A stretch of DNA of 64,000 nt. It comes from Rhizobium sp. BK313. GTDB taxonomy: Bacteria; Pseudomonadota; Alphaproteobacteria; Rhizobiales; Rhizobiaceae. The stretch covers positions 186,001-250,000 of the forward strand of contig NZ_JACHZQ010000008.1 in assembly GCF_014193655.1 (NCBI RefSeq), read 5' to 3'. This document shows positions 35,365 to 64,000 of this stretch, in pieces. The position numbers and the translations under genes were made by a program. Numbering within the stretch: position 1 is the first letter of the stretch; the number at the start of each line of letters is the position of its first letter. The notes under the pieces were generated by a model, which was not told the origin of the DNA, ran no database searches, and worked only from the letters and a program-made list of their open reading frames with translations.

Positions 35365-35436
35365 ATTATTAATGGCATATTAATTATATCGCTGCTCACG
35401 CATCCGTGATGCCTGTCAAGGTTGGCTCGATAGGCA

Positions 35437-37120: not shown

Positions 37121-37489
37121 GTTGGAATCCTGTTTGGTTGAAAATGACCAACTTCCGACCGAACAACTTGTTCCATTGAATAGCTCAATCGTTACAGGCA
37201 GCCTTTTCATGGAGCTGAAGCGGATGTTTCCCTTGGAAATCGAGCGGGTGGCTTCTTGAAGCTGACCTATGCGATGTCTGTCTCGAGTGATAGTGCACAA
37301 CCAGCTGCTGGCTCTTGAAGGAATGTGAACTTTTGACCCACCAATCGCTAGCTGAGCTTACTCTAGGCCATTCGCGACCGTGTTCATAAAAACAGTGGCG
37401 ACAGAGTAATCTGAGCAAACTGTCTTCTAAGCCTTGATCATTAATGCCCATAGATCTAATGAGGCGTCAGTGATCCCTAGGAGTTTGGA

Positions 37490-37732
37490 ATGCAAGTTCT
37501 GGTACGTGACAACAACGTTGAGCAAGCGCTCCGTTTTCTGAAAAAGAAATTGCAGCGGGAGGGCGTTTTCAGGGAAGCCCGACTGCGGGAGCGTTTTGAA
37601 AAGCCCTCCGAAAAACGTGCTCGTGAAAAGGCCGAGGGTATTAGGCGTGTCCGTAAACTCGCCCGCAAAAAGCTTGAGCGGGAAAGCGGCATTTCGGCCC
37701 CAAAGAAGGCCAGAACTTCTGGTCGCAAGTGA
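37490..37732 (+). CDS. rpsU: 30S ribosomal protein S21
   Basis: An 80-residue, strongly basic protein matching bS21. It starts [20 protein letters not shown], continues with the REGVFRE block and [13 protein letters not shown], and ends in a Lys/Arg-rich tail. S21 binds the 30S platform and aids mRNA start-site recognition. Rhizobia often carry more than one rpsU. This copy stands alone among signalling genes and remnants, so it may be a secondary copy. GGAG lies about eight bases before the ATG. The 369 bp upstream (37121-37489) contain no other supported gene. Confidence 0.95.
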
Positions 37733-38038
37733 GGATGGGGCGGCGGATGTTTCGTCCGTGAGGGGTGAGACTTTCGCTTGCCGGCGAGATCCCTTTGCCG
37801 TCGGTCGTGCCCGATACGGCGCTGCCGCCCTTGGGCTTGCAGCTTTGTGTCCAAAGCGAAGAGCATAGTCCGGACCAAACTTCGTGGCCCGGTATCGGAT
37901 GGACTTAATGGACACGACGATACCGCACTCCCCCAACTTTTCCTCGGCCGTCCGCAGCTGAGCGGTAAGCGGAGATACAGCCAGACCGCATGGGCAATGC
38001 GGGATGGCTGAAATCACGAGCTAATGGGGTGAACGATC
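37733..38038. other. Intergenic gap, 306 bp, no gene supported
   Basis: Between rpsU and the DUF2026-like gene. Overlapping frames on both strands have no protein family character, and no clear terminator hairpin with T tract is seen after rpsU. Confidence 0.45.
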
Positions 38039-38647
38039 GTGTTGATCAAGCAAAGCGACTATCATCGGATTTACAAGGTGATCAACAGCCTGCTGATCGG
38101 CGAAGATGCCAATCCCGCCACAGCGTCGATGTATTTCAGCACATTTGGAGCCTTCATCCTCGAACATCATTACAAGGTAAAAGCGAAACCGAAGGGCGGG
38201 CTCGCCGCATATAATTTGGAAGGAACACGCATCCTTTTCGCAGATCACCGCGAAGACGGCTACGTCTCTGGCGCTGGAGAAAACTTTCACTGCTGGGTCG
38301 AGGCGGACGGTTGGGCAATCGACTTCATGGCCCCAACGTTCTCGGAGAGTGTCCCGGGTCTGGCGATGCCTTCGAAGATGTTTCAGCGCCCGCTTTTGTC
38401 AATGGCTCCATCTATCAACGACCTCGGCCAATCCGGCGATTTCTTCTATCGCTCTGAGCCTGAGGCAATGAGCCAGCGTTTCGCAGATTGGCGCAAGCAT
38501 CCGATGATCGGAGACCTCGCCACCGTCGCCACCAACTGGTTTCGGAAATCGCCTAAGCAAATGCAGGCGTCAATCGCCGTTCAGGATCAGCGCGGGAGAA
38601 CCAAGACTGTTCACCTTGTCGGCAATTCCCTCACTGGCGCCTGGTGA
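38039..38647 (+). CDS. DUF2026-like protein
   Basis: A 202-residue protein starting at GTG 38039. It resembles the DUF2026 family: GLAAYNLEG, NFHCWVEADGWAIDFMAP and FYRSEPEAM blocks. A Cys-His-Asp-like set (HCWVE...WAIDFMAP) resembles papain-like or transglutaminase-like folds, in which cysteine, histidine and aspartate form a triad. That reading is tentative. It stands alone on the plus strand between rpsU and the cyclase gene. No biological role can be given. Confidence 0.72.
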   Translation: MLIKQSDYHRIYKVINSLLIGEDANPATASMYFSTFGAFILEHHYKVKAKPKGGLAAYNLEGTRILFADHREDGYVSGAGENFHCWVEADGWAIDFMAPTFSESVPGLAMPSKMFQRPLLSMAPSINDLGQSGDFFYRSEPEAMSQRFADWRKHPMIGDLATVATNWFRKSPKQMQASIAVQDQRGRTKTVHLVGNSLTGAW

Positions 38648-38904
38648 TCTGCGGAAGTTCGACCAATTGCGCTGATATCGACACCGCTCTCGAGTCAATC
38701 TGATTGTCAGATCAGTTCTGCGCCTGACGGCGTCTCCTTAACGCCTGGGCAGGCGTAGCCGCGTACGAGAAGGTATGATCGACAATACTCCTGCCTCCGG
38801 CGATGTGCGCAACACGCGCCACTGCTTTCCTGCCGAGATCTTCCTCGGGATTTATCCCGAGACCGAGAGTCATGGTATGATCCGCCCACAAGGAGGTAGT
38901 TGTC

Positions 38905-41900
38905 ATGTCGGACATCGCCTCGTGGCTGGCCCGTCTCGGGCTAGACAAGTACGCGGGGGCGTTCACCGCCAACGAAGTTGATTTTGATACGCTGCGACAT
39001 CTCAGCGAAGAGGACCTGAGGGAGCTGGGCTTACCCCTCGGCCCGCGTCGGAAGCTCCTGGCGGCGATTGCCGCGATGGACGGCATGTCGCCAGCGAGTT
39101 CCGTGTCCGTAACTGGGCTTTCGCGTGTCCAAGCCGAGCGCCGGCAGCTGACCGTGATGTTCATCGATCTCGTAGGTTCGACCGAGTTGTCACAACGGCT
39201 CGATCCGGAGGAAATGCGCGACATTTTACGCGCCTATCAAAGTGCGGTGTCAACGCAGATTGCACGATACGACGGTTACGTTGCCAAGCTCATGGGTGAC
39301 GGCGTGCTTGTCTATTTCGGTTGGCCAAGGGCGCATGAAGACGACGCTGAACGAGCAGTGCGAGCGAGTCTGGCGGCAATGACGGCGACCGCTCGCCTGA
39401 CGACTCCAATGGGCAAATCGCTGGCGGCCCGGATAGGCATAGCCACCGGTCTCGTCGTGGTCGGCGACCTGATAGGTGAAGGATCAGCACAGGAAGAAGC
39501 CGTCGTTGGCGAAACGCCGAACCTTGCTGCCCGCTTGCAGGCCTTGGCCGAGCCAAACACCGTCGTGATCGCTGACGGCACGCACCGGTTGGTTGCCGGA
39601 TTGTTTGAGATGATCGATCTCGGTCTCCACCAGCTTAAAGGTTTCGCAGCACCTGTCCCCGCCTGGCGCATTACCGGCGAGGCCGATGTCGATGGACGTT
39701 TCGATGCGTTGCACGGCATCGCAACGCCGCTGGTGGGGCGATCAGAGGAACTCGAGCTTTTACTTCAACTCTGGCAGCAAGCCCGGAAAGGACAAGGCCA
39801 TGCGGTGATGCTGTCGGGTGAGCCCGGCATTGGCAAGTCGCGCCTGACGGCCGCCTTCGAAGAGCGACTGAGCAACGAGCCACACGCACGGCTTCGCTAC
39901 TTCTGTTCGCCATACTACGTCAACAGCGCCCTTTACCCTGTGTTGAAACAGCTTGAGCGTGCTGCCGGACTTGAACGGAGCGATAGCGCGAGCGTGAAGC
40001 TCGACAAGCTTGAGGCATTGAAGCTGCAATCGACATCGGACACATTCGAAGCTGCCTCGCTTTTGGCGACACTATTGTCAATCGACACGACTGGCCGCTA
40101 TGCGCCGACGACGCTGACACCACAAGCGCAGAAAGCCCGTACGCTCAGCGTTCTCATTCAACTGCTTGAAGGAATGACCGCAAACCAGCCCGTTGTGATG
40201 GTCATTGAAGATGCGCAGTGGATCGACCCGACGACTGCCGAATGGCTCGACATGCTCATCACACGCTTACGCGACCTGCGGATGCTTCTGATCGCCACCT
40301 CTCGCCCCGAATACCGGCCATCCTGGCTCGGATTGTCACATGTGACGGTGATCGCGCTTGGCCGTCTTGACCACGATCAGGCAGCAGCAATCGTAGACCG
40401 TGTAGCCGGCGGCAAAACCCTGCCTTCGGCAGTCAGGGACCAGATTTTGGCCAGGACGGAGGGCGTGCCGTTGTTCGTCGAAGAACTGACCAAGACCGTC
40501 CTTGTTTCCGGCCTGCTTGTCGACGCTGGCGATCACTATCGATTGAAGGCCCCATTGCCTTCACTTGCGATTCCTTCGACGCTGCAGGATTCACTCATGG
40601 CCCGTCTCGACCGAGCCTCCTCAGTCAAGAGCATGGCACAGATCGGCGCGTGCATTGGTCGTGTCTTCCATCACCGGTTGCTGGCCGCAATCACCGGATG
40701 CGATGCCGCCAAGCTCGGGGATGATCTTCAGAAGCTGGAAAAATCCGAGCTCGTTTTGCGAAATGGCGTCGCACCGGAGGCCACCTACGCCTTCAAGCAC
40801 GCACTATTGCAGGACGCGGCGTATCAGAGCCTGCTCAAGAGCCAACGGCAACAGATCCACGCAAATATCGCGTCAACGATGGAGCTGCAGTTCCCGGAAA
40901 TCGCCGAGACCGAGCCCGAGACGCTCGCGCATCACTACACGGCCGCCGGGCTTGCCGATCAGGCCGCAGGGTACTGGCTGAAGGCAGGGCAGCAGGCGCT
41001 GAAGCGGTCGGCGAATGTCGAAGCGTTGGATCACCTCGGAAAGGGACTGGAAGCGGTCGCGTCCCTGCCCCGCAACGAGGTCCGATTGCGGCGCGAGATT
41101 CATTTGCAGCGCGCCATGGGAGTGGCCGCAATGGCTGTCAAAGGCTGGGGCGCGCCAGACGTTTTGCTTGCCTTCTCTTCGGCACGCAGGCTTTGCGAGA
41201 AACTGGGCGATAGCAACGAACTCTTTATTGCGGTTCGAGGCGAAGCTTCATATCATCTTGTATCTGGTCACCTGCGCGAGGCAGACAACCTCGGCCGTGA
41301 ATGTCTGCGGATCGCTCAGTCGGCAAATGACTTAGGCCTCCTCCTCGAAGCGCATCATCAGGTGTGGTCGAGCAAATTCTTTCTTGGTGACTATCGGGCC
41401 GCCGAGAAGCACACAAGCTGGGGGATCGCGACCTATGATCGCGAGCGGGATCATCGCCTGACCTATGTCTTTACGGGTCATGACCCTGGAGTGTGTTGCA
41501 GGAATTACTTTTCGGAAATTCTCTGGACTCGCGGTTACCCCGACCAGGCTTTGCACCGCGTCCGAGAGGCGCTGGCACTGGCCAGACACGTGTCTCATTC
41601 CGTCAGCATAGCCACCGCACTGAACAACTTGACCAATGTCCACCTCCTGCGCCGTGAACCTAGGGCAGCCCTCGAAGCGGCGCAGCAGCAGCTTGAGATA
41701 TCCGCAAAATTCGACCTGCCGCTCATGGCAGGGATAGCCCGTTTCCACATTGGCTGGGCGCTGGCTCAACAGGGAGAATTGGAACGGGGTATCCAGGAAA
41801 TGCACGAAGCCGTTGAAGCCGTTGCGGCTACCGGCGCGGACATGGGCATGGCGTTCCGCCTCTGTATCCTGGCGCAAGCGCACGGGCAGTTCGGCGAGGC

Positions 41901-51641: not shown

Positions 51642-52886
51642 ATGAAACAAGGTCTCAAAGTGGCTGTTGCTGCTTTTTCATTTGCTGCTCTGATCGCGAC
51701 AAATACGCATGCAGCGGGGTTGAAGGCCGAGGTCCTGCATTGGTGGACATCCGGCGGCCAGGCGGCTGGTGTCAGGGTGCTAGCCGATGCCTATGCCAAG
51801 GCCGGCGGCGAATGGGTTGATAACGCCATCGCCAATCCGGAGCAGGCAAGATCGATCGGCATCAATCGCGTCGTCTCCGGCGATCCGCCGACAATGATGC
51901 AGATGAACGCTGGCAAGCAGTTCGACGAACTCGTCGACCAGGGCTTGCTCCGCAATCTCGATGCCATAGCCGACGCCGAGGGATGGCGGAAGGTGCTGCC
52001 GGCCGATGTGCTTGACGCTGTGAGCCGGAACGGACACATCTATGCCGTCCCAGTCGGCCTGCAGACACCCAATTGGCTTTGGTACAACAAGGCCATCTTC
52101 CAGAAGAACGGCCTCACCGAGCCTACCACCTGGGATCAGTTTTTCGCCGATGCCGACAAGCTGAAACAGGCGGGTGTGATCCCGCTCGCGGTCGGCGCAC
52201 AGCCGCCATGGATCAACCAGCTCTTTAACGGCGTTCTTGTCGGCGCCGGCGGTCAGGACGTGTATCTGAAGATCATGCGCGACAAGGACGCCGACGCCGT
52301 CAAGTCGCCGGCCTTCCTCAACGCCGCAAAGACCTTCAGCCGCCTGCGAGACTATATCGATCCGGGCAGCCCCAACCGCAGCTTCAATGAAGCCGCCGCC
52401 ATGATCATTCGCGGAACGGCGGGTATGCACATCATGGGCGACTGGGAAAAGGGCGAATTCAATGTCGCCGGCCTCACCGCCGGCAAAGATTACGGCTGCG
52501 TCGTCGGCATGGGCGACCAGACATTCCTCACTGACAGCAACGTCTTCGTCATGCCGGTAACCCAAAATCCGGATACGGAAAAGGCTCAGGACATCCTGGC
52601 GAAAATGCTGCTCTCCAAGGATGTTCAGATCGCATTCAACAACAAGAAGGGCAACCTGCCCGTCCGCACCGATATCGATCCAAGCACGCTGGACGCCTGC
52701 GCGCAGATCGGCATCAAAGTGTTGCAGGACCCGAAGAAGCAGCTGCCGGGACCGGATTGGCTGGCGACGCCGGACATGCTCAACTCGCTTGAAGACGTGA
52801 ATGTCGAATTCTGGGCGAGCAAGACGATGACCCCGGAACAGTTCGCGGACAAATACGCGGCCGTGGTCGCGAAGTTCAAAGAGTGA
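51642..52886 (+). CDS. ABC transporter sugar-binding protein (family 1 extracellular solute-binding protein)
   Basis: A 414-residue periplasmic protein. The signal peptide (about residues 1-24) ends at Thr-His-Ala-Ala, with the mature start near AGLKAEVLHWWTSGG, a typical opening of family 1 sugar-binding proteins. The length fits glucose/mannose-type binding proteins of rhizobia. GGGAGGAG precedes the ATG. It is followed by a strong hairpin and then the two permease genes. The binding specificity is unknown; the convergent catabolic operon suggests a sugar or sugar acid. Confidence 0.94.
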   Translation: MKQGLKVAVAAFSFAALIATNTHAAGLKAEVLHWWTSGGQAAGVRVLADAYAKAGGEWVDNAIANPEQARSIGINRVVSGDPPTMMQMNAGKQFDELVDQGLLRNLDAIADAEGWRKVLPADVLDAVSRNGHIYAVPVGLQTPNWLWYNKAIFQKNGLTEPTTWDQFFADADKLKQAGVIPLAVGAQPPWINQLFNGVLVGAGGQDVYLKIMRDKDADAVKSPAFLNAAKTFSRLRDYIDPGSPNRSFNEAAAMIIRGTAGMHIMGDWEKGEFNVAGLTAGKDYGCVVGMGDQTFLTDSNVFVMPVTQNPDTEKAQDILAKMLLSKDVQIAFNNKKGNLPVRTDIDPSTLDACAQIGIKVLQDPKKQLPGPDWLATPDMLNSLEDVNVEFWASKTMTPEQFADKYAAVVAKFKE

Positions 52887-52892
52887 CGCTCA

Positions 52893-52928
52893 GGCGGGCA
52901 CGGACCCAGGAAAGACTCCGTGCCCGCC
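52893..52928 (+). other. Strong intercistronic hairpin between binding-protein and permease genes
   Basis: GGCGGGCACGGA (52893-52904) pairs perfectly with TCCGTGCCCGCC (52917-52928) seven bases after the binding-protein stop, with no T tract. Hairpins at this place usually protect the upstream mRNA or attenuate, giving much more binding protein than permease. Confidence 0.75.
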
Positions 52929-52956
52929 CGCCCCTCTCAAACCAGCGAGAACCTTC

Positions 52957-53856
52957 GTGACCCCAGCCGCCGCCCTGACGCGACGCCGAATCCAGTGGAG
53001 CCTCTATGTCGGCCTCTTGCCGGCAACTGTGATCGCCCTCTTCGGCTATATCGGAACCATGGTCTGGACCATCGGGATTTCCTTCACGGAATCAAAGATG
53101 TTGCCCGTGGCCCGCTTCGCGGGCTTCGATCAGTACGTCCGTCTCTTCGGCACCGAACGCTGGATCACCTCGCTTGAGAACATGGTCATCTTCGGCTGCT
53201 TGATGATCGTGATCTCCCTTGCTATCGGGCTGCTGCTCGCCATCGCGCTCGATAAGCATCTGCGTGGCGAGGGCATTTTTCGGGTCATCCTTCTGTACCC
53301 CTATTCGATGTCCTTCATCGTCACCGGCTTCACCTGGCAATGGATCCTCAATCCCGAGCTCGGCATTCAGCATGCCGTGCGGAGCTGGGGCTGGACGAGT
53401 TTTCGTTTCGACTGGATCGTCAACAACAACACCGCGATCTATTGCGTTGTGCTCGCCGCCGTGTGGCATGCCGCCGGCCTGGTGATGGCGATCATGCTGG
53501 CGGGCCTGCGCGGGGTAGATCCCGATCTCTGGAAGGCCGCCCGCGTCGACGGCATCAAGACCTGGCGCGTCTACGTGCACATCGTCATCCCGCTGCTGCG
53601 GCCGAATATCATCACCGCTGTAGTGCTGCTCTCGCTTGGCGTCGTCAAGCTCTATGACCTGGTCGTAGTCCTGACCGGCGGCGGCCCCGGCATATCGTCG
53701 GAAGTCCCGGCAAAGTTCGTCATGGACAATCTCTTCATTCGCCAGAACATCGGATTGGCGACGGCAGCGGCGACCGTGTTGCTCATTACCGTCCTAAGTG
53801 TTCTCGCGCCGTGGCTCTACCACGAATATTTTCGACCGTCCCGGGCGCGGAGCTGA
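52957..53856 (+). CDS. ABC sugar transporter permease, MalF type
   Basis: A 299-residue inner-membrane protein with six spans, starting at GTG 52957. The EAA-type loop is DLWKAARVDGIKTWRVYVHIVIPLLRP (about residues 187-213), read in two parts as KAARVDG and VIPLLRP. It forms the channel with the next permease. The start choice rests on the family N-terminus (QWSLYVGLLPA) lying shortly downstream. Confidence 0.92.
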   Translation: MTPAAALTRRRIQWSLYVGLLPATVIALFGYIGTMVWTIGISFTESKMLPVARFAGFDQYVRLFGTERWITSLENMVIFGCLMIVISLAIGLLLAIALDKHLRGEGIFRVILLYPYSMSFIVTGFTWQWILNPELGIQHAVRSWGWTSFRFDWIVNNNTAIYCVVLAAVWHAAGLVMAIMLAGLRGVDPDLWKAARVDGIKTWRVYVHIVIPLLRPNIITAVVLLSLGVVKLYDLVVVLTGGGPGISSEVPAKFVMDNLFIRQNIGLATAAATVLLITVLSVLAPWLYHEYFRPSRARS

Positions 53857-53861
53857 CGCAA

Positions 53862-54785
53862 ATGGACACCAGCGCAAAACTCTCGCAGACATCGGGCGAA
53901 AAATCCCCTGTACGGCCACGCGGAAAAAAGCCAAGGCGCTTCTCCGTCGGCAACGCGGGTTTCTACGTGTTTCTCATCATGGCATCGGCGTTCTTTGTCC
54001 TGCCGTTTTATGTCATGCTGGTAACGTCCTTCAAGTCGATGGACGAAGTCCGGTTGGGCGAAGTCTTCTCGCCGCCCCAGGTCTGGACCATCGCGCCATG
54101 GATCAAGGCCTGGGCGACCGCCTGTACCGGCCTGGAATGCGATGGCATCAGCGTCGGCTTCTGGAACTCCGTGCGCATCCTGATCCCGAGCGCCATATGT
54201 TCGATCCTAGTCGGCGCCATCACCGGCTATGCGCTGTCCTTCTGGCGAGCCCGCCATGCCAATCTTCTGTTTGCGGTGCTGCTCTTCGGTGCGTTCGTGC
54301 CGTATCAGATCTTCCTCTATCCATTGGTTCGGGCCTATTCGCTGCTGCATATGAACAGTACGATGTTCGCGCTGGTCTTTTCCCACGTCCTGTTCGGCCT
54401 GCCGGTCATGACGCTGGTGTTCCGCAATTTCTACAGCAGCCTGCCGCAGGAAATCTTCAAGGCCGCGCGTGTCGACGGCGGCGGCTTCTTCCAGATCTTC
54501 ATCTATCTCATCCTGCCGATGTCCGCTCCGATGCTGGTGGTCGCCTCCATCCTTCAGGTCACCGGCATCTGGAACGACTATGTACTGGGTCTGGTCTTCG
54601 GCGGCCTGCAGAACCGTCCGATGACGGTGCAGCTCATCAATATCGTCGCGCCGTCCGGCGCCGAAATCGAATACAACGTCAGCATGGCGGCAACCATCCT
54701 GACGGCAATCGTCCCGTTGGTGATCTATATGGTGTCGGGCCGCTGGTTCGTGCGCGGGATCGCTGCGGGCGCCGTGAAAGGGTAG
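53862..54785 (+). CDS. ABC sugar transporter permease, MalG type
   Basis: A 307-residue inner-membrane protein. The ATG at 53862 lies five bases after the preceding stop, and an earlier in-frame TTG at 53811 would overlap it. A hydrophilic N-terminal tail of about 35 residues precedes the first span. The EAA-type loop is QEIFKAARVDGGG followed by LILPMSAP. It completes the permease pair of this importer and is followed after two bases by the ATPase gene. Confidence 0.93.
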   Translation: MDTSAKLSQTSGEKSPVRPRGKKPRRFSVGNAGFYVFLIMASAFFVLPFYVMLVTSFKSMDEVRLGEVFSPPQVWTIAPWIKAWATACTGLECDGISVGFWNSVRILIPSAICSILVGAITGYALSFWRARHANLLFAVLLFGAFVPYQIFLYPLVRAYSLLHMNSTMFALVFSHVLFGLPVMTLVFRNFYSSLPQEIFKAARVDGGGFFQIFIYLILPMSAPMLVVASILQVTGIWNDYVLGLVFGGLQNRPMTVQLINIVAPSGAEIEYNVSMAATILTAIVPLVIYMVSGRWFVRGIAAGAVKG

Positions 54786-54787
54786 AC

Positions 54788-55870
54788 ATGGCCAGCATCT
54801 CCATCCGCGACATCGAAATTCGCTTCGAGGCATTCCAGGTGCTTCAGGGCCTCGATCTCGAAATCAACAGCGGCGAGTTCATCGTCCTGCTCGGCCCGTC
54901 GGGCTGCGGCAAATCCACCCTGCTCAATGCGATCGCCGGCCTGATCGATGTCGCGGACGGCGAGATCTGGATCGGCGAGCGCAACGTCACCTGGGAAGAA
55001 CCCAGCGATCGCAACATCGGCATGGTCTTCCAATCCTATGCGCTCTATCCGCGCATGACGGTAGAGGGAAACCTGTCGTTCGGGCTACGCATGGCGGGCG
55101 TAGCCAAGGCCGAGATCGAGAAGCGCATCGCGCGGGCCGCCCAGATCCTGCGCATCGAACCCTATCTCAAACGCCGTCCTTCGGAACTTTCGGGCGGGCA
55201 ACGGCAGCGCGTCGCCATCGGCCGCGCACTCGTGCGCGATGTCGGCGTGTTCCTGTTCGATGAACCGCTGTCGAACTTGGATGCAAAGCTTAGAACGGAA
55301 TTGCGCGTCGAGCTGAAAAGGCTCCATCAGGAGCTCGGGACCACCATGGTCTTCGTCACACACGACCAGATCGAGGCGCTGACGCTTGCCGACCGCATCG
55401 CAGTCATGAATGGCGGCATCATCCAACAGTTCGATACGCCCGACGACGTCTATCGCCGGCCGAACAATCGCTTCGTCGCCGAATTCGTCGGCTCGCCGGC
55501 GATGAATTTTTTCGACGGTACGGTCGTGACCAGAGGCCGTTCGATCGGCTTCGAAGTTCGAGGCGGTCCGACGCTGGATCTCGATGGTTATGCCTTCGCA
55601 AGCCGCCCCACCGCCGACGCGCGGGCATCACTTGGAATCCGCCCCGAGCAGATATCCCTGTCGAAAAGCGACAGGAGCGTCAGCATGCCCGCCATCGTCA
55701 ATCTGGTCGAACCCATGGGGTCGGATAAGCTGCTATGGGCAACGGCGGCGGATACCACCATGTCCCTGCGTACGGCGCCGGACTTCGAAGTGCCCTTGCG
55801 ACAGCCGATCGATGTGTTCTTCCAGGCATCGCAAGCATCGCTATTCGGCGAAAACGGCGAACGTCTCTAG
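54788..55870 (+). CDS. ABC transporter ATPase, UgpC/MalK type
   Basis: A 360-residue ATPase. Walker A is GPSGCGKST near residue 36, the signature LSGGQRQR, Walker B FLFDEPLSNLD, then VTHDQIEALT and a C-terminal TOBE/OB domain. The start at 54788 (MASISIRD) immediately follows the permease stop. The same frame stays open upstream to 53798 but only as antisense-free overlap with the permease gene. It powers the importer of this operon. A second MalK-type ATPase gene lies in the convergent operon at 60712. Confidence 0.94.
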   Translation: MASISIRDIEIRFEAFQVLQGLDLEINSGEFIVLLGPSGCGKSTLLNAIAGLIDVADGEIWIGERNVTWEEPSDRNIGMVFQSYALYPRMTVEGNLSFGLRMAGVAKAEIEKRIARAAQILRIEPYLKRRPSELSGGQRQRVAIGRALVRDVGVFLFDEPLSNLDAKLRTELRVELKRLHQELGTTMVFVTHDQIEALTLADRIAVMNGGIIQQFDTPDDVYRRPNNRFVAEFVGSPAMNFFDGTVVTRGRSIGFEVRGGPTLDLDGYAFASRPTADARASLGIRPEQISLSKSDRSVSMPAIVNLVEPMGSDKLLWATAADTTMSLRTAPDFEVPLRQPIDVFFQASQASLFGENGERL

Positions 55871-55983: not shown

Positions 55984-56760
55984 TCAGCGCAGCAGTGACT
56001 GACCGCCGTCGACCCAGATGGGCGTGCCGGTAATATGCCTTGCCTGATCCGAGGCTAGGAAAACCACCGCTTCCGCGACATCTTCTGCCTGTCCCGGCTT
56101 GCCGCCAGTGATCGGAATATCGCCTTCCGGCCATTGCACTGGAATGGCGGCCTCGATCGTGTTGCGCTTCAGCGTGCTCTCGCCGATGGAGGTCGTCACC
56201 TGCCCAGGGCAGACGGCGTTAACCCGTATCCGATGCTTCGCCAGTTCGAGGGCAAGCTGCTGCGCGATGGCGAATTGCGCGGCCTTGGTCGCGACATAGG
56301 CCGTGGCGCCGGCGGTTGTGAAAATGCGGGTTCCGTTCATCGACGAAATGATGACGATCGAACCGCCACCCCCCGCTTTCAGCAGCGGAACGGTGGTATG
56401 CAGCGTATTGTAGGTGCCGGTCAGGTTTACATCGATGGTCTTCGACCATTCCTGCGGCTGCAGATCATCGATCGGCGCCCATACGCCATTGATCCCCGCA
56501 TTGGCGATGACGATGTCCAGGCCACCCTCGCCGACCAGAGCCGAGACCGCATCCGCAACCTGTTGAAAGTCGGCGATGTCGACGGTCGCGGAGCGGATTT
56601 TGCCGCCAGCGCGGCTAATCTCCTCGCAAGTTCCCGCCAGCGTCTCCTCGTTGCGGTCCAGTGCAAGCACCGTCGCGCCTTGCGCGGCCAGCAGCCTCGC
56701 GCAGGCCCGCCCGATTCCTGCCCCTGCGCCCGTCACCAACGCGACTTTCGAACTGAACAT
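55984..56760 (-). CDS. Short-chain dehydrogenase/reductase
   Basis: A 258-residue SDR with TGAGAGIG at the N-terminus, NAGINGVW in the middle, the catalytic Ser in IISSMNG and YVATK as YxxxK. The ATG at 56760 has CGGGAGG just upstream; the longer frame to 56811 was rejected. It is the last gene of the minus-strand catabolic operon. It likely oxidises a sugar, lactone-forming sugar or sugar acid for the pathway served by the convergent importer. Confidence 0.92.
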   Translation of the reverse strand: MFSSKVALVTGAGAGIGRACARLLAAQGATVLALDRNEETLAGTCEEISRAGGKIRSATVDIADFQQVADAVSALVGEGGLDIVIANAGINGVWAPIDDLQPQEWSKTIDVNLTGTYNTLHTTVPLLKAGGGGSIVIISSMNGTRIFTTAGATAYVATKAAQFAIAQQLALELAKHRIRVNAVCPGQVTTSIGESTLKRNTIEAAIPVQWPEGDIPITGGKPGQAEDVAEAVVFLASDQARHITGTPIWVDGGQSLLR

Positions 56761-56807
56761 GATACCTCCCGGAAAGATCGTTTTTTGAAATTGGACAGTT
56801 TCGGCCG

Positions 56808-57758
56808 TCAATAGCCCCTGGCCGCGTCCACCGCATTGTCCAATCGTTCGCCGGCAAGATAGCGATCGAGATTTGCGAGCAGCCGCGCAGACATGCGCTC
56901 GACAGTGTCCTCGGATGTGTAGGATATATGCGGCGTCAGGCGGATGCGCGGATGATGATAGAAAGCATGTCCCTCCGGCAGCGGTTCAGGGAACGTAACA
57001 TCCAGCGTCGCCGCCGAGATCCGGTTCTGGTCAAGTGCCTCTAGGAGTGCATCGTCATCGATGACCTCGCCACGGCAGACATTGATGACATGAAGGCCGG
57101 GTTTTGCGTTCCTCAATATATCGCGGTCAAGGATGCGGCGTGTCTCCCGCGTCAGCGGGACAGCGAGCAACAGATGATCGACATCGGCGACCATTTCCCG
57201 CAGCGATGCAAACTGGCGAAGGCCGGCGGCCGAATTCGATATACCCGACGAGCGCCGCACGAAACCGACCTCCATTCCAAGCGCGCGTGCTTTGGTGGCT
57301 GTCTGCACGCCGATCGCTCCCAGCCCGAGAATGCCGAGCCGCTTGCCCGAGACCAGGCCGAGCGTGCGACTTTTCCATTGCTCGGCGGAACTTACCCGAA
57401 GTCCGTCGAACAATTGCTTTTCATGCGCAAAAATCGCGGCAATCGCATATTCGGCGATCGCATCGGCCGTGATCCCCCGGCCCGTCGTCACCAAAGGCGC
57501 ATCGAAGAACCATGACGGAAAGGCATCGACCCCGGCACCGCCCACCTGAACCCATTTCAAGTTACGGGGCCAAGTTGGCGGGCGCTCCACCGGGGCCGAA
57601 TTCCAGCCTTTGAAGAAGGTAAACAGGATCTCCGCATCGGCGGGAACGTCCCAGACCGAATGAGCCTCGGCATAGTTCAGCAGGATCGGTTTGCTCTCAT
57701 GCGCACGCAATCGCTCGACCTGATATTCATCCATATTGCAAGCAATGACCGGCCGCAT
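56808..57758 (-). CDS. D-isomer-specific 2-hydroxyacid dehydrogenase
   Basis: A 316-residue NAD(P)-dependent dehydrogenase. The Rossmann motif is LGILGLGAIG. The catalytic Arg (NVCRGEV), Glu (FPEPLPEG) and His (TPHISYT) are all present. The ATG at 57758 is preceded by GAGGGCGGG; an alternative GTG lies at 57785. It resembles hydroxypyruvate/glyoxylate reductase-like enzymes. It sits between the SDR and the AraD1/GguC-like gene in the same operon and is similar in role to the dehydrogenase at 3977. Confidence 0.91.
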   Translation of the reverse strand: MRPVIACNMDEYQVERLRAHESKPILLNYAEAHSVWDVPADAEILFTFFKGWNSAPVERPPTWPRNLKWVQVGGAGVDAFPSWFFDAPLVTTGRGITADAIAEYAIAAIFAHEKQLFDGLRVSSAEQWKSRTLGLVSGKRLGILGLGAIGVQTATKARALGMEVGFVRRSSGISNSAAGLRQFASLREMVADVDHLLLAVPLTRETRRILDRDILRNAKPGLHVINVCRGEVIDDDALLEALDQNRISAATLDVTFPEPLPEGHAFYHHPRIRLTPHISYTSEDTVERMSARLLANLDRYLAGERLDNAVDAARGY

Positions 57759-57838
57759 CCCGCCCTCGTCCTTTGCTGAGATCACACGTTCAGTGAACGT
57801 CCAAGATGGCTTCGTTGGCCCCCTGAAAACGGAATGCT

Positions 57839-58837
57839 CTAAAGTGCAACCACGCCGTTGGGTCGCACTTTTTCCGGCCTGCGGAACGTGCCGTTGATCA
57901 ACGGCTTTCCGAACTCCGGAATCTCCATTTCAAAGACATCACCATCCATCGTCTTCACGCCGTCGCCAAAGGACGCAACGGAGGTTCCCATGAACTGGAC
58001 ATGCACATTGCCCGGCTGCAGGAACTGATCGTACTTGAAGTAGTGATATTCGAGATTGGCGATGGAATGACTCATATTGTCCTCGCCGGTCGGGAAGGCC
58101 TTGCTCCAGATCACCTCGCCGTTTCGGCGAATGCGCACCTCGCCGAGAAGCGAGGAAGGCAGCTCGCCGACGCGCAGCTCCGGCCCGAAGGAACAATATC
58201 TAAGTTTGGAATGGGGAAGGTAGAGATAGTTCTTCTTCTCCATGACGTGATCGGTACATTCGTTGCCGATGGCAAATCCCAGCCGGTAGGGCATGCCGTC
58301 GGGCCCGATAACGTAGAGGCCGACGATTTCCGGTTCCTCGCCTTCGTCATCGGCAAAGGCGGGAACGGGATAGGGCTGACCGGGGCGCACCACGATCGAC
58401 CCGTCGCCCTTGTAGAACCATTCCGGCTGAGCGCCCGCCTTGCCCTTTTCAGGCTTGCCGCCCTCGAGGCCCCATTTGAACATGCGCATGGAATCGCTGA
58501 GGTTCGCCTCGCCGTCATCGGAAAGCTTCTTGTGCATCTGATCGCGCGCGGCAGCGCTAGCGACATGCGTGAGGCCGGTGCCGGCGATCATGCAGTTGGT
58601 CGCGCGGGGATGATCGAGCGGCGGCAGGACGCGGCCTTCGGAAAGCAGCGTCGCGTAAGAATGTTGCTCCGCTGTCCCCAAGTGGCCCACGAGCGATGCC
58701 AGCGTCGTCTTCCGCGCAATTGCCTCAAGGGCAAGTTCGCGCGTCGTCGCAAACACCTTGACCTGCCGGATGGTCTCGCCGTCGACAAGCCCAACGGCGC
58801 GAGAGCCATCGGCGGTTTCAAATTGAATCAGTCGCAT
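57839..58837 (-). CDS. AraD1/GguC-like protein (fumarylacetoacetate hydrolase superfamily)
   Basis: A 332-residue protein starting MRLIQFETADGSRAVG. It resembles the AraD1/GguC family, a branch of the FAH superfamily found next to sugar ABC transporters in Agrobacterium and relatives. The FAH-like metal ligands appear as Glu-x-Glu in EEPEIVG and Asp in NECTDHVME. FAH-family enzymes cleave or dehydrate 2-keto-3-deoxy sugar acids and related beta-diketones. That fits a pathway beginning with the enolase-superfamily dehydratase at the right edge. The precise reaction is unproven. Confidence 0.83.
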   Translation of the reverse strand: MRLIQFETADGSRAVGLVDGETIRQVKVFATTRELALEAIARKTTLASLVGHLGTAEQHSYATLLSEGRVLPPLDHPRATNCMIAGTGLTHVASAAARDQMHKKLSDDGEANLSDSMRMFKWGLEGGKPEKGKAGAQPEWFYKGDGSIVVRPGQPYPVPAFADDEGEEPEIVGLYVIGPDGMPYRLGFAIGNECTDHVMEKKNYLYLPHSKLRYCSFGPELRVGELPSSLLGEVRIRRNGEVIWSKAFPTGEDNMSHSIANLEYHYFKYDQFLQPGNVHVQFMGTSVASFGDGVKTMDGDVFEMEIPEFGKPLINGTFRRPEKVRPNGVVAL

Positions 58838-58911: not shown

Positions 58912-59880
58912 TCACGCCGTCTCATCTTCCGGGAGCTCGAAGAATTCGATACGCTTCGCCGTCTCGAACTTCACGAAGTCCGGATGGGCACGGACGGCAC
59001 TGAGAACGAGAACTTCCTCCTCGTTCATCGGCGTGTCGTAGGATCTGGCGTTCGCAATCAGCTGTTCGCTATTGTCGACGCCCATCAGCACTGTATCCGG
59101 CTGCTGCTGGGCGACCCACTTCAACGCGGCACGCGCCAGAAGCCCACGGTCCTCGATGCCGGCGGCGGCGCCGATGCGGAAAAGCTCGCTCTTGAAGAAG
59201 ACCTCGCGCGCAGTCACGCCGAGATTTTGCTGGCGCGCTCTTGGGACGACAGTTTCCAGGCAGGTGGCATCGCCGATGCTGAGATCAAGGTTCACGGCAT
59301 CGAAGGCGCCGCAAGCCATCATCGCGAGATAGAGACGTTCACCGGAAAAAGAGTCGGCAACGGCGAAGCGGATAAGACCCTCGCGCTTCAACTCGCCGAT
59401 ATTGTAGGCGAGTTTTTGAAGATATTCGGGATCGTTGTCGATCGACCAGGCCAGCAGCCCGACATTCAAGAGATCGATGGCATCGCGGCGGATGAGCTTC
59501 AGGCCGCGCTGCAACTCGGCGCGCAGCTTGCCGAGATCGAGCATGCTGCGATTGTTCTTGTCATAGGAGTAGCACATGCCCTCCGGTCTGGTCTGGACCA
59601 CGATGTCATAGGGCGGCGGATTGTCGCGCAGGTTGCGCCCAAGCGCTTCCTTCTCGGAATCGATCGTGACGTCGAACAGATTGATGCCGAGATCATAAGC
59701 CGTCTTCAGCAGGGCGACGCGCTTTGGGCCGCCATAACCCTCACCGATATGGCCGGGCGCCACCGCCAAAGCCATGTTCTCGTTGAAGCCCCTGGATTTG
59801 CCGCTCGGCAGATATTCGTGGCCTCCGAGCGCGAGAACCGAGACATTCAGCCCGGTGCGGCCCAAGATCGTCTTGCGCAT
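58912..59880 (-). CDS. Aldo/keto reductase-like protein lacking most of the catalytic tetrad
   Basis: A 322-residue TIM-barrel protein recognisable as an aldo/keto reductase from LGRTGLNVSVLALGG, GINLFD and the REGLIRFAVADS strand. Asp70 is kept. The tetrad Tyr is missing (VTIDSEKEALG replaces the usual YG.SE..LG), the Lys position reads VVQTRPEG and the His position reads LLNVGLL. Canonical NADPH-dependent reduction is therefore doubtful. It may be a binding protein or carry another activity. It is embedded in the operon between the AraD1-like and RraA-like genes. Confidence 0.85.
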   Translation of the reverse strand: MRKTILGRTGLNVSVLALGGHEYLPSGKSRGFNENMALAVAPGHIGEGYGGPKRVALLKTAYDLGINLFDVTIDSEKEALGRNLRDNPPPYDIVVQTRPEGMCYSYDKNNRSMLDLGKLRAELQRGLKLIRRDAIDLLNVGLLAWSIDNDPEYLQKLAYNIGELKREGLIRFAVADSFSGERLYLAMMACGAFDAVNLDLSIGDATCLETVVPRARQQNLGVTAREVFFKSELFRIGAAAGIEDRGLLARAALKWVAQQQPDTVLMGVDNSEQLIANARSYDTPMNEEEVLVLSAVRAHPDFVKFETAKRIEFFELPEDETA

Positions 59881-59941: not shown

Positions 59942-60664
59942 TCACTGTTCGCTTTCGGGCACTTCGCTTTGGTAGCGGGCTAAGGTCTCGTCGCTCGGGG
60001 GATAATAGCCGCGCACGCCGCTGCCTGCGGCGACCTGCTTCTGAACCCAATTGTCCTGACGTTCCTTCTTGGCGCCATTTTCGGCAACTTCCGCGGCAAG
60101 GTGGGCGGGCAGCACCACGACGCCATCCTCATCGGCGACAATGAAATCACCTGGGAAAACGGCAACGCCGCCGCAGCCGATAAGGGTTTGAACGTCGGCG
60201 GGCATCAGGCCGGCCGGCGATGGCGGCGCGGCCGGGCCGGAGCAATAGATCGGCAGTCCCAGCTTGCGAAGCTGCTGGACGTCGCGCATGCCGCCATCGG
60301 CGACAAGACCCGCCACGCCGGCATAGATCAACTGCGATACCAGCACGTCTCCGAGCGCTCCCACAGCGGAGTTCTTCTGCATGTCGAGCACGAGGACCGC
60401 ACCGGCCGGAATTCCTTCCATGGCCGCAAGCACGACGCTGCCCGGCGAGCCAAGATCGGTCGATGTGTTCAGATCCTCCCGTTGAGGAACGTAGCGAAGT
60501 GTATATGCCGGTCCGGCGAAACTGCAATTGCCTTGGTCAAGAGGTACGATACCGCGGATCGCCTGATATCGCAGTCCGTGTTTTTTCAGGAGCTGTCCCG
60601 TGATGGCCGCCGTAGGGACTTTCCTTAGCGCCTCAACGATCGCCGTCTGTTGATCTTCCGTCAT
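59942..60664 (-). CDS. RraA-like/HMG-CHA aldolase family protein
   Basis: A 240-residue protein of the RraA/4-hydroxy-4-methyl-2-oxoglutarate aldolase family. The active-site signature GGMRDVQQL (Arg-Asp pair) and the GDVLVSQLIYAG pyruvate-binding region are visible. The ATG at 60664 (MTEDQQTAI) is chosen because an AAAGG sequence lies upstream and the longer frame overlaps the ATPase gene. Class II pyruvate aldolases of this family cleave 4-hydroxy-2-oxo acids to pyruvate. That would suit the last step of a sugar-acid pathway. Confidence 0.85.
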   Translation of the reverse strand: MTEDQQTAIVEALRKVPTAAITGQLLKKHGLRYQAIRGIVPLDQGNCSFAGPAYTLRYVPQREDLNTSTDLGSPGSVVLAAMEGIPAGAVLVLDMQKNSAVGALGDVLVSQLIYAGVAGLVADGGMRDVQQLRKLGLPIYCSGPAAPPSPAGLMPADVQTLIGCGGVAVFPGDFIVADEDGVVVLPAHLAAEVAENGAKKERQDNWVQKQVAAGSGVRGYYPPSDETLARYQSEVPESEQ

Positions 60665-60711
60665 TTCCAAACCTTTCAGATAATCACGAACGCCCCCATG
60701 GGCCAAAAATC

Positions 60712-61797
60712 TCAAGCGCCGAACCGCCGCCCGTTGTCGCTTGCGCCATCGAAAAGGTGCATGTGTTGGCGCTTGAAGCGAAAACCGACCTTTGCGCCCG
60801 GGGCGATATGGATCCGCTCGCGCACCAGCGCGGTGATCGGAGCGCCGGCGGTTTCGGCTTGAACGATTGTTTCCGACCCGGTCGGCTCCACCACCACGAT
60901 CGCGCCGGGAATGGCGCCGGGATCAGCCGCATCGCAGAGTTCGATATGTTCCGGGCGGATACCGAGTACGATCGGCCGTCCCGCCTCCGCACCATTGGCA
61001 GGCGAAACGGCAATCTTCGTCCCGTCTCCGGCCACGAATTCCTGACTGTTTTCGGGGCTGATGCGTCCCTGCAGGAAATTCATGGCCGGCGAACCGATAA
61101 ACCCGGCCACGAAGCGGGTATTCGGCCGATCGTAGACCTCGAGCGGCGAGCCGATTTGCTGAATGTTGCCATCGAGCATGACCACGATCTTGTCCGCCAT
61201 CGTCATGGCTTCGATCTGGTCGTGCGTCACGTATACCGTCGTGGTCTTGAGGCGATGATGCAGATTCTTGACCTCGGCGCGCATCTGGACGCGCAATTTG
61301 GCGTCGAGATTGGACAGCGGCTCGTCGAACAGGAAGACTTGCGGATCGCGCACGATGGCGCGTCCCATTGCAACGCGTTGGCGCTGCCCGCCCGAGAGCT
61401 GTCGCGGATAACGATCCAGCAAATTGGCGAGGCCGAGAATGCTTGCTGCCTCCCTCACACGTTTCCTGATCTCTTCATTCGGCCGGCCGCGCAGCTTGAG
61501 GGAAAAGCCCATATTCTGCTCGACGCTCATGTGCGGATAGAGCGCGTAATTCTGAAAGACCATGGAGATATCCCGATCCTTCGGCGCGAGATCGTTGACG
61601 AGCTTCTCGCCGATCCGGATCGTCCCGCCTGAAATCTCCTCCAGGCCAGCGATCATGCGCAGCAATGTCGACTTGCCGCACCCCGAGGGTCCGACAAGGA
61701 CGACGAACTCCCCCTCGTCTATGTCGACATTCAACCCGTGGATGACCTCAAGAGCGCCGTATCTCTTGTAAACGCTCTCTATGGCTACTCGTCCCAT
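60712..61797 (-). CDS. ABC transporter ATPase, UgpC/MalK type (second in this locus)
   Basis: A 361-residue ATPase with Walker A GPSGCGKST, signature LSGGQRQR, Walker B FLFDEPLSNLD, VTHDQIEAMT and a C-terminal TOBE domain. It lies inside a catabolic operon with no permease genes, while the convergent importer operon already has its own ATPase. It may serve a second importer outside the window, or form a heterodimer with the ATPase at 54788. All ATPase motifs are intact. Confidence 0.94.
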   Translation of the reverse strand: MGRVAIESVYKRYGALEVIHGLNVDIDEGEFVVLVGPSGCGKSTLLRMIAGLEEISGGTIRIGEKLVNDLAPKDRDISMVFQNYALYPHMSVEQNMGFSLKLRGRPNEEIRKRVREAASILGLANLLDRYPRQLSGGQRQRVAMGRAIVRDPQVFLFDEPLSNLDAKLRVQMRAEVKNLHHRLKTTTVYVTHDQIEAMTMADKIVVMLDGNIQQIGSPLEVYDRPNTRFVAGFIGSPAMNFLQGRISPENSQEFVAGDGTKIAVSPANGAEAGRPIVLGIRPEHIELCDAADPGAIPGAIVVVEPTGSETIVQAETAGAPITALVRERIHIAPGAKVGFRFKRQHMHLFDGASDNGRRFGA

Positions 61798-61863: not shown

Positions 61864-62280
61864 TCAGCCCCGCGTATCCAGGTCGATCAATTCGATGCGG
61901 TAGCCATCGGGATCGTCGACGAAAGCGATATGAATTTTCCCGAACTTGAGCGGACCGGGTTCGCGGACAATCTTGATGCCCGCCGCCCTCAGCTTGTCGC
62001 AGACGGCATAGATGTCGCGGACGCCGATGGCGACGTGGCCGAAGCCGTCCCCGCGTTCATAGGATTCACGGCCGTAATTGTAGGTGAGCTCGATCATCGG
62101 ATCGGTGGCCTCGTCGCCGTAGCCAATGAAGACGTTCGTGTATTTGCCTTCCGGTACGTCGCTGCGACTTACCTCCCGCATGCCGAAATTATCGCTGTAG
62201 AAGCGGATGGACCGCTCCAGATCGCCCACACGGATCATGGTGTGCATGATGCGGAACGTGCCGGCTGGATTGTCAGACAT
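61864..62280 (-). CDS. Glyoxalase I (lactoylglutathione lyase), VOC family
   Basis: A 138-residue VOC protein of the glyoxalase I type. The four metal ligands His13, Glu64, His82 and Glu130 are all offset by eight from E. coli GloA (His5, Glu56, His74, Glu122), which strongly supports the family and the short nickel-type form. It converts the methylglyoxal-glutathione adduct to lactoylglutathione. It is the first gene of the minus-strand operon. Methylglyoxal removal during sugar-acid catabolism is a plausible role, though related substrates are possible. Confidence 0.88.
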   Translation of the reverse strand: MSDNPAGTFRIMHTMIRVGDLERSIRFYSDNFGMREVSRSDVPEGKYTNVFIGYGDEATDPMIELTYNYGRESYERGDGFGHVAIGVRDIYAVCDKLRAAGIKIVREPGPLKFGKIHIAFVDDPDGYRIELIDLDTRG

Positions 62281-62380: not shown

Positions 62381-62504
62381 ACAGATAGCAGAAGCTGTCA
62401 ACATCAATTCTTGGCCGCGACGCGCTAGCGCGGTGCAACGAAGGAGGGTTGCAACTTTCAAGCCGATCTTGATAATAAACTCCGACACAGAACCGGATGA
62501 CTGC

Positions 62505-63320
62505 ATGAGTGTGACGCAAAAGAGCGATTCCAATTCCGCCTCCAGCCTTGCCAGAGAGGACAAGAATCATATTCCGGTCATCGACCGCATGCTCGACATC
62601 CTCGAGCTGATCGAGCTCCGCCAATCGGGTATCGTCATCAAGGATCTCTGCGAACGCCTCTCCGTGCCGCGCTCGACCGTCTATCGCATCCTCAACACGC
62701 TTGAAGCGCGCGACGTGGTCAAACGCGCCGCCAGCGGCGCCTATGTTCTCGGGCCCCGGCTGATGAATTTCGCGGCCAACGTCACGGATACGCGCGGCAC
62801 CGACATCGCGCAGATCGCGGTCGGACCGATTGAGCGCCTGTCGCTGGACATCGGACAGTCCGTCAAAGTATCGATCGTCTACAATGGGCTTGCGCTCGTC
62901 GTCTGCTGCGCCCAGAGCACACAGGATTTTGCGATCACCGTGCGGCCTGGTCGCACCATCCCTCTGCATTCCGGCGCGGCAAGCAAGATCCTGCTTGCCA
63001 ACATGCCGGAGGCGGAACGCGAGAAAATATTGTCGCGGCCGCTCCGCTCGTTCACCTCCAAAACCATCACAGATCCGGACAAGCTGCGGGAGGAACTCGA
63101 AGAAGTCCGCGCCACTGACTGGTCGGTCGACGTCGGCGAGCATGGCGAAGGCATTCATGCGATGGCGACTTCGATCCGCGACGGCGATGGCAACGTCGTC
63201 GCTGCGATATCGATTCCCTATCTCGGCACGCATGCGCGCGCCGACCTGACCGTCATGCGGCAATCCCTGATCAAGACGGCCCAAGCCATTTCCAAAGAAT
63301 TGAGACGGCATTCCTCCTGA
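62505..63320 (+). CDS. IclR family transcriptional regulator
   Basis: A 271-residue regulator. The N-terminal winged helix has LCERLSVPRSTVYRILNTLEARD as recognition region, and the IclR effector domain shows SGAASKILLANM, SVDVGEHGEGIHAMATSIRD and VVAAISIPYLG. The ATG at 62505 is preferred; an upstream GTG at 62433 would lengthen it by 24 residues and has a good AAGGAGG after it, not before it. It is divergent from the catabolic operon and convergent with the enolase-superfamily gene, and is the likely regulator of the whole right-hand locus. Confidence 0.91.
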   Translation: MSVTQKSDSNSASSLAREDKNHIPVIDRMLDILELIELRQSGIVIKDLCERLSVPRSTVYRILNTLEARDVVKRAASGAYVLGPRLMNFAANVTDTRGTDIAQIAVGPIERLSLDIGQSVKVSIVYNGLALVVCCAQSTQDFAITVRPGRTIPLHSGAASKILLANMPEAEREKILSRPLRSFTSKTITDPDKLREELEEVRATDWSVDVGEHGEGIHAMATSIRDGDGNVVAAISIPYLGTHARADLTVMRQSLIKTAQAISKELRRHSS

Positions 63321-63394: not shown

Positions 63395-64000
63395 TTAGCC
63401 GCCGTATCCATCGAGCGCATGCGCACGCAGGAAATCCATATCCATCTCGATTCCCAGACCGGGTTTATCGGTGAGCTTCAGGCTGCCGCCGGAATTGTCC
63501 AGCGGCTCCTGGATGAAGCGGTTATAGGAAGAAAGATCATGCAGGCTGGTCTCGACCCGATAGAAATTCGGCGTCGTGATCATAACGTGCGATCCAGCGA
63601 CGACATTGATTGGGCCGCTGGCATCATGAGGCGTGACCGGGACATAATAGGCCTCGCACATCGTCGCGATCTTCTTCAGTTCGCTGATGCCGCCCGCCCA
63701 CGTCACATCGGGCATGATGTAGTCGGCCAGCTGGTTTTCCAGGATCGGCACGAATTCCCATCGTGTGTGCAGGCGCTCGCCGACCGCAATCGGAACATCG
63801 ATCTGCTCGCGAACCTGCCGCAACGCGTGATAGCTTTCGGGCGGAACGGGTTCCTCGAACCAATCGATCTGGCCGGCATCCTTGAGGCGGTTGCATAGCC
63901 GCACGGCTGTGGGCACATTGAAACGCCCATGTGCGTCGATCAGGATTTCGATTTCGGGACCCGTCGTTTCGCGGATGAGAGCTGTCAGTTCCGCGCCGAT
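63395..64000 (-). CDS. Enolase-superfamily acid-sugar dehydratase-like protein (5' part outside window)
   Basis: The frame is open to the right edge, so the N-terminal capping domain and the KxK region are missing. The visible 201 residues cover metal ligands in LIDAHGRF, WFEEPVPPE and AVGERLHT and the barrel histidine in VTPHDASGP. This fits mandelate-racemase or galactonate-dehydratase-like subgroups. It probably dehydrates a sugar acid to a 2-keto-3-deoxy acid, feeding the AraD1-like and RraA-like enzymes of the adjacent operon. It converges on the IclR gene. Confidence 0.88.
   Translation of the reverse strand: MGAELTALIRETTGPEIEILIDAHGRFNVPTAVRLCNRLKDAGQIDWFEEPVPPESYHALRQVREQIDVPIAVGERLHTRWEFVPILENQLADYIMPDVTWAGGISELKKIATMCEAYYVPVTPHDASGPINVVAGSHVMITTPNFYRVETSLHDLSSYNRFIQEPLDNSGGSLKLTDKPGLGIEMDMDFLRAHALDGYGG

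Follow-up and report, generated by a model that had tools for sequence, protein, structure and literature searches.

Aldo/keto reductases (AKRs) are textbook oxidoreductases, and the Kv-beta proteins are AKR subunits found on potassium channels. Among AKR-type sugar enzymes, the L-galactose dehydrogenases are NAD(P)-dependent sugar 1-dehydrogenases that carry the Asp-Tyr-Lys-His catalytic tetrad. SmbA of Caulobacter folds as a TIM barrel and has both ppGpp and c-di-GMP as ligands, and its best BLAST hits outside its own kind are distant aldo-keto reductases (PMC9944927). The same study describes a guanine held by R78, E188 and R143, a loop 7 between strand 7 and helix 7 that bears an RxxD motif and was removed as fragment 198-215, an apparent restriction of the protein to prosthecate Caulobacterales, and ppGpp-site residues that are not strictly conserved (PMC9944927).

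Here we analyze an AKR-like gene of Rhizobium sp. BK313, located in a 64,000-nucleotide stretch of DNA that we refer to as the window. The gene is an intact open reading frame of 322 codons with verified strand and coordinates (Table 1). An original prediction made from the sequence alone proposed an AKR fold in which only the tetrad aspartate is preserved, and a conserved but different function.

Fold assignment and structural neighbors

The window protein belongs to the AKR superfamily, in fold and ancestry, by both profile and model. Like PF00248 AKRs in general, it passes the Pfam cut-off for Aldo_ket_red (45.6 bits against a cut-off of 24, E 6.4e-12), and the sole match in an NCBIfam scan at E 0.01 scored 18 bits where the cut-off is 550. 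When the window protein was searched against the PDB as a single sequence, no close homologue was found at E 0.001. The profile of the family described below matched AKRtyl (8xr2, E 2.6e-10) and AKR11C1 (1ynp, E 5e-10), from which the family differs in having the tetrad reduced to Asp and a longer segment between strand 1 and helix 1. Aligning the family against 23 ordinary AKR comparators with hhalign gave a probability of 99.9 (E 1.4e-33, 268 columns). This alignment has a four-column gap facing the Tyr loop, and about 19 columns within the strand 1-helix 1 segment are inserted in the family.

AlphaFold models of the window protein and its Paenibacillus relative, both built from one six-sequence alignment, reached pLDDT 87.3 and 84.8, respectively, each with pTM 0.86. 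The segment after strand 1 is less sure, with 10-residue block means over residues 21-50 of 67, 74 and 79 in the window protein and 52, 68 and 81 in the Paenibacillus protein. L-galactose dehydrogenases (8usu, 8scc, 7ezl, 9w6y and others) occupied the eight best rows of a VIA-align search (Z 26.8-28.0, 17-21% identity over 271-285 aligned residues), headed by 8usu (Z 28.0, rmsd 2.7, 278 residues, 20% identity). These dehydrogenases share the fold of the window protein but not its active site, in which the tetrad is absent and the nicotinamide positions are replaced. Below them among the best 50 matches were many AKRs, Kv-beta2 channel subunits (Z 24.2-24.9) and SmbA (8bvb, Z 24.7, rmsd 2.9, 257 residues; 6gtm and 7b0e, Z 24.0 each). 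The best 50 Foldseek rows were likewise AKR structures, with moderate TM-scores of 0.61-0.68 by query length. The Pfam match, the model at pLDDT 87 and Z scores up to 28 all bear out the predicted fold.

The catalytic tetrad and the residues conserved in its place

For comparison, we considered 37 non-member AKR-like matches listed from the genomes of six members, of which 24 had a locus; together with L002 from another genome, 25 were translated and a length filter (270-450 aa) retained 23, leaving out L015 (186 aa) and L002 (727 aa). Because they were chosen by weak similarity to the family's own profile, with 24 of the 37 having a locus, these comparators are near cousins and not a sample of all AKRs.

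We take Asp50, Lys84 and His117 of the AKR tetrad to correspond to D70, R98 and G141 of the window protein. In the joint alignment of eight family members and 23 comparators, the Asp column is D throughout both sets. The Tyr55 column is a gap in 8/8 family members versus Y in 23/23 comparators, the Lys column is R in 8/8 versus K in 23/23, and the His column holds G in seven members and A in one versus H in 23/23. Of the Asp-Tyr-Lys-His set required of an AKR enzyme, the family therefore retains Asp in every member and the other three in none (0/8), as the original prediction had it for the window protein. That prediction also described the Tyr, Lys and His positions as reading as unrelated residues, and here only the loss itself holds. 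The Tyr loop of the family is shortened and its Tyr not replaced: D70 to L80 spans 10 residues in 8/8 members versus 12-16 in the comparators, and in both models strand 2 ends at residue 71 and helix 2 starts at 74, with just residues 72-73 between them. The exchange of Lys for Arg, as aligned, is a conservative and invariant change and not an unrelated residue.

The positions that presumably contact the nicotinamide differ as well. D176, at what we take to be the anchoring Ser/Thr position, is found in 8/8 members versus S in 17 and T in six comparators, and the column we take to be the second anchor, a Gln, has N in seven members and Y in one versus Q in 22 comparators and L in one; the family thus has neither the Ser/Thr nor the Gln that anchor the nicotinamide in AKR enzymes. 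At the presumed nicotinamide-stacking position, R225 is present in 8/8 members versus W in 10, N in four, F in three, Y in three, M in two and R in one of the comparators. N277, which we assume to sit in the C-terminal segment near the adenine site, is kept in the 7/7 members that cover it. The strand 1-helix 1 segment is 34-35 residues long in the family versus 11-23 in the comparators.

A different set of residues is fixed across the family. We counted 69 of the 322 positions of the window protein as invariant, over eight rows to residue 245 and seven beyond it because the L042 copy is truncated; this extent of invariance indicates that the loss of the tetrad is not due to chance or decay. 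The residues invariant in all eight include G19, G20, H21, E22, G27, G31, F32, D70, T72, D74, E76, K77, E78, Q96, T97, R98, P99, E100, Y104, S105, Y106, D107, N110, N139, A175, D176, F178, S179, G180, R225, E226, F228 and K230 (Table 1); G101 and C103 are not invariant, since the truncated L042 copy has Ala and Asn there. At the H21-E22 columns, where the alignment beside an insertion is uncertain, neither H nor E occurs among the 23 comparators. With the catalytic face defined ad hoc as the last two residues of each strand, the following loop and the first helix turn, 38 of 127 face positions are invariant, compared with 31 of 187 other positions (Fisher p 0.006), and charged invariants, His included, number 15 on the face versus five elsewhere (p 0.0017). 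This enrichment suits any ligand site, not solely that of an enzyme.

Table 1. Coordinates, in the window, of the AKR-like gene, of the segments conserved in its product and of neighboring genes
Feature	Coordinates	Strand	Basis
AKR-like gene, 322 aa, tetrad lost but for Asp	58912..59880	-	ORF, Pfam, column counts
H21-E22 after strand 1 (GGHE), invariant 8/8	59815..59820	-	alignment
D70..E78: tetrad Asp, shortened Tyr-less loop, invariant D74, E76, K77, E78	59647..59673	-	alignment and model
R98..N110 (RPEGMCYSYDKNN): Lys-to-Arg position, family-specific strand 3-helix 3 loop	59551..59589	-	alignment
N139..G141: G141 at tetrad His position, N139 invariant	59458..59466	-	alignment
D176..G180: D176 at presumed nicotinamide-anchoring Ser/Thr position	59341..59355	-	alignment
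R225..K230 (REVFFK) after strand 7: R225 at presumed stacking position	59191..59208	-	alignment
SDR (FabG-like)	55984..56811	-	Pfam, NCBIfam
D-2-hydroxyacid dehydrogenase	56808..57785	-	Pfam
GguC / AraD1 family, downstream neighbor	57839..58837	-	NCBIfam NF040903, 499.8 bits, cut-off 340
RraA-like gene (PF03737), upstream neighbor	59942..60715	-	Pfam, NCBIfam
UgpC-like sugar ABC ATPase	60712..61797	-	NCBIfam and comparison
VOC/glyoxalase I-like gene, heads minus-strand row	61864..62280	-	Pfam, NCBIfam
IclR-family regulator, divergent	62433..63320	+	Pfam, NCBIfam
MR/MLE (enolase-superfamily) sugar-acid dehydratase-like gene, continues past window end	63395..64000	-	

Relatives and gene context

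A scan of species-genome contigs with exact peptide patterns of the window protein, which is blind to distant relatives, found five relative loci with 42-61% identity to the window protein, in a Burkholderiaceae MAG, two Rhodospirillales MAGs, a Xanthobacteraceae genome and Paenibacillus filicis, and profile searches added members in G1099 and G1627. Including the window protein, the eight homologues span Alpha- and Betaproteobacteria and Paenibacillus, with the same residues replaced in each; the relatives, one of them from a Firmicute, are 41-61% identical to the window protein and long invariant motifs are common to all. In the G1627 member (L042:9199-10266), the AKR-like part extends to about residue 249 and continues in frame into a tail that shares about 40% identity with the C-terminal part of solute-binding proteins encoded on plasmids; this joined ORF is either a deletion fusion or an assembly error. 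No such family appears among the titles and abstract openings listed by our searches of the CC-licensed PubMed Central literature.

The family is very rare and patchy. In overlapping genome samples, each of which counts the genome at its center, and with a limited number of candidates scored per genome so that members may be missed (at most five in the class sample of 385, seven in the family sample of 297, and 9-11 in the samples of 246, 249, 248 and 198), it was found in 1/148 genomes of the genus, 1/297 of the family and 1/385 of the class around the window genome, and in 1/246 of the order and 1/25 of the genus around the Paenibacillus genome. The corresponding tallies are 3/5 for the family and 3/248 for the order around a Rhodospirillales MAG, 1/249 for the family and 1/71 for the genus around the Burkholderiaceae MAG, and 2/198 for the family of the Xanthobacteraceae genome. 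Thresholds were 1e-3 for the genus of 148 genomes, 1e-30 for the family of 297 and the class of 385, and 1e-20 for the rest. In a 61-genome sample, a second hit (E 4e-4, 30% identity over 5-182) was by its score no member. A sister family bridging the clade and ordinary AKRs was considered and rejected for the six genomes searched at E 0.001, where the best non-member scored 48.8 bits versus 538-584 for the six members, though intermediates may exist elsewhere. Plasmids searched with the window protein gave no match at 1e-5; the Paenibacillus relative matched 31 plasmid records, the best 20 of which were 21-27% identical and mostly annotated as aldo/keto reductase. Among viral contigs, none of 17 pattern matches was a relative.

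Phylogenetic analysis placed the eight members in one clade on a long stem (support 100/100). Within it, the window protein pairs with the Burkholderiaceae protein (100/99) and the alphaproteobacterial proteins of loci L004, L005, L006 and L040 form a separate group (100/100); the tree carries flags for odd composition in the Paenibacillus and Burkholderiaceae proteins and for long branches in two comparators. This pairing, together with the absence of the gene from the other 147 genomes sampled in the genus, suggests that the window gene was acquired by horizontal transfer. A function different from that of ordinary AKRs, as originally proposed, thus appears well supported in outline by eight homologues that share the same replacements in a single clade.

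In the window, the AKR-like gene lies in a minus-strand row of VOC/glyoxalase-like, ABC ATPase, RraA-like, AKR-like, GguC/AraD1, 2-hydroxyacid dehydrogenase and SDR genes. The GguC/AraD1 protein scores 21.9 with Pfam FAA_hydrolase, below the cut-off of 23.9, and the glyoxalase I-like gene (TIGR00068, 149 bits, cut-off 120) is an odd partner for sugar-acid genes. The best NCBIfam match of the MR/MLE gene is galactonate dehydratase (261 bits against a cut-off of 311), and two permeases and a solute-binding protein follow it past the end of the window (L043). A second carbohydrate-type ABC importer, with a solute-binding protein, two permeases and an ATPase, converges on this row from 51642-55870 (+). 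Elsewhere in the window, positions 32001-40000 have a G+C content of 0.54-0.56 versus 0.59-0.60 on both sides.

At L004, L005 and L006, a solute-binding protein gene and two permease genes come before the AKR-like gene, with the ATPase gene and then an FCD-type GntR regulator after it, and L040 has the same order plus one Pfam-less ORF between the AKR-like and ATPase genes; Pfam was run on the L006 genes, and the genes of L004, L005 and L040 were identified by similarity to these. The upstream permease gene is three bases from the AKR-like gene in L004 and L005, and among these four loci an RraA-like gene follows the importer row in L004 and L006 only. The UgpC-like ATPase of the window shares 58-60% identity with those encoded near the AKR-like gene at the four loci. 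The solute-binding proteins of these loci are only 23-25% identical to that of the window, which indicates that the importers differ. At L042, ATPase and permease genes lie downstream of the AKR-like gene and a GntR-like gene lies on its upstream side, and the substrate class of the importer there is uncertain, with FAD-dependent oxidoreductase and amino-acid-type solute-binding protein genes following. At L003, a TctC gene (Pfam) lies upstream and a similar-looking gene further downstream; directly after the AKR-like gene is a gene for a 723-aa GHL6/beta-galactosidase-trimerisation protein (L003:2617-4788). The Paenibacillus locus, L007, has no importer or sugar-acid enzyme among the genes identified, based on 14 listed ORFs of at least 180 aa, four of which were Pfam-scanned besides the AKR-like gene.

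Within the flanks examined, which contig ends limit at some loci (1.7 kb at L003, 3.3 kb at L040), an ABC importer is near the AKR-like gene at 6/8 loci, five of them carbohydrate-type by similarity and one uncertain, while an RraA-like gene is present at 3/8 and an AraD1-like (GguC) gene at 1/8. ABC import is therefore the most constant theme in the context of the gene. The original prediction had argued for its different function from a tight operon with AraD1-like and RraA-like enzymes; that argument is weak, and the counts within these flanks reject a conserved AraD1/RraA/AKR operon. The nearest match to the window's set of importer, dehydratase, RraA and IclR genes is on a plasmid of Roseomonas haemaphysalidis (L045, NZ_CP061178.1 184064-200795), with identities of 52% for the solute-binding protein, 61% and 69% for the permeases, 71% for the MR dehydratase, 57% for RraA and 42% for IclR. 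The AKR-like gene has no match anywhere on this plasmid, the replicon searched, and within the 16.7 kb there is no match at E 1e-10 to GguC, the ATPase, the hydroxyacid dehydrogenase, the SDR or the VOC protein. This set without an AKR-like gene indicates that the gene has no fixed link to that pathway.

Candidate functions of the family

Our preferred reading, to which we give nearly but not quite an even chance, is that the window protein is an AKR-derived, non-redox isomerase or epimerase (mutarotase-like activity included) or a lyase, and that its substrate is a sugar or sugar acid supplied by an ABC importer. The loss of Tyr, Lys and His together with the changed nicotinamide anchors in every member argues that hydride transfer was abandoned, and the fact that another polar set is strictly conserved on the same face points to a functioning ligand site and not to decay. 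A fold close to the sugar 1-dehydrogenases, combined with the import neighbors, favors a non-redox enzyme of sugars or sugar acids. The new invariant polar set would then serve as a working active site, in which R98, R225 and K230 may hold a substrate of anionic or polyol type, with H21/E22, D70, E100, D176 and E226 as candidate acid-base groups or metal ligands, the substrate presumably being a sugar or sugar acid imported by the ABC transporter. It is plausible, though clearly short of even, that the whole uncharacterized family has exchanged hydride transfer for a new charged active site and a non-redox reaction on imported sugars; judged from conservation, the candidate residues of that site are H21/E22, D70/D74, R98/E100, D176 and R225/E226.

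The same conserved face could instead belong to a non-catalytic switch of the SmbA type, in which a metabolite or nucleotide second messenger bound at the mouth of the barrel would cause a signaling change of conformation. We consider this unlikely. SmbA offers the likeness of the same barrel type in a non-reductive role, it is among the best 50 structural matches, and strands 3 and 7 of the family are followed by an invariant Arg and an invariant Glu, respectively, whose match to R78 and E188 is a positional guess. On the other hand, the Z scores of SmbA tie with those of many ordinary AKRs, it is absent from the 51 PDB sequences found with the family profile at E values up to 10, and in both models helix 7 starts at 230 after strand 7 has ended at 225, so that four residues stand where SmbA has its long RxxD-bearing loop 7. 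Gene neighborhood and taxonomic range also differ, and the face residues of the family are strictly conserved, unlike the ppGpp-site residues of SmbA. An NAD(P)-dependent oxidoreductase with a relocated tetrad, in which D70 is kept, R98 stands for Lys and H21, Y104 or Y106 act as His and Tyr, is rather improbable in our view. This possibility bears on the original prediction directly, which a tetrad supplied by nearby residues would contradict: no such supply is evident by sequence, but the invariant H21, R98, Y104 and Y106 are predicted by the model to lie at the barrel mouth, on the loops of strands 1 and 3. Dehydrogenases are the nearest folds and the retained N277 fits cofactor use, yet both nicotinamide anchors differ in 8/8 members and the stacking position is Arg in all of them, although one of the 23 comparators also has Arg there.

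By analogy with Kv-beta, the protein may be a regulatory or structural subunit of the ABC importer, a reading we hold to be quite doubtful. The position of the gene between the second permease and ATPase genes in L004, L005, L006 and L040, and the presence of an importer near six of the eight loci although the importers differ, would agree with such a role, and the Kv-beta2 structures provide the likeness of an AKR fold in a transport setting; the transporter link in the family, by comparison, comes from gene neighborhood alone. Against it, an RraA-like gene separates the ATPase gene from the AKR-like gene in the window, no such importer was seen at L003 (which has TctC genes instead) or L007, and the invariant residues cluster on the catalytic face. 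A decayed AKR without function, finally, is very improbable: the tetrad is lost and the L042 relative is a truncated copy fused in frame with a piece of a solute-binding protein gene, but the same replacements and long invariant motifs persist in proteins 41-61% identical, including the one from a Firmicute.

The preferred reading of a non-redox sugar or sugar-acid enzyme has to accommodate several observations that count against it. With N277 kept, a dinucleotide may still bind; the accompanying enzyme is not constant; and both the Paenibacillus locus, with neither an importer nor a sugar-acid enzyme identified, and the Roseomonas plasmid set, with no AKR-like gene, speak against an enzyme of imported sugars. 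SmbA is the one non-redox re-use of the AKR barrel that came up in this analysis. If the preferred reading is true, a clade that has dropped the tetrad, changed the anchors and fixed other residues would be a natural case of one barrel that changed its function, from that of an oxidoreductase to that of an isomerase or lyase. This suggests that such proteins, where labeled aldo/keto reductase, bear the name of a reaction that they probably do not catalyze.
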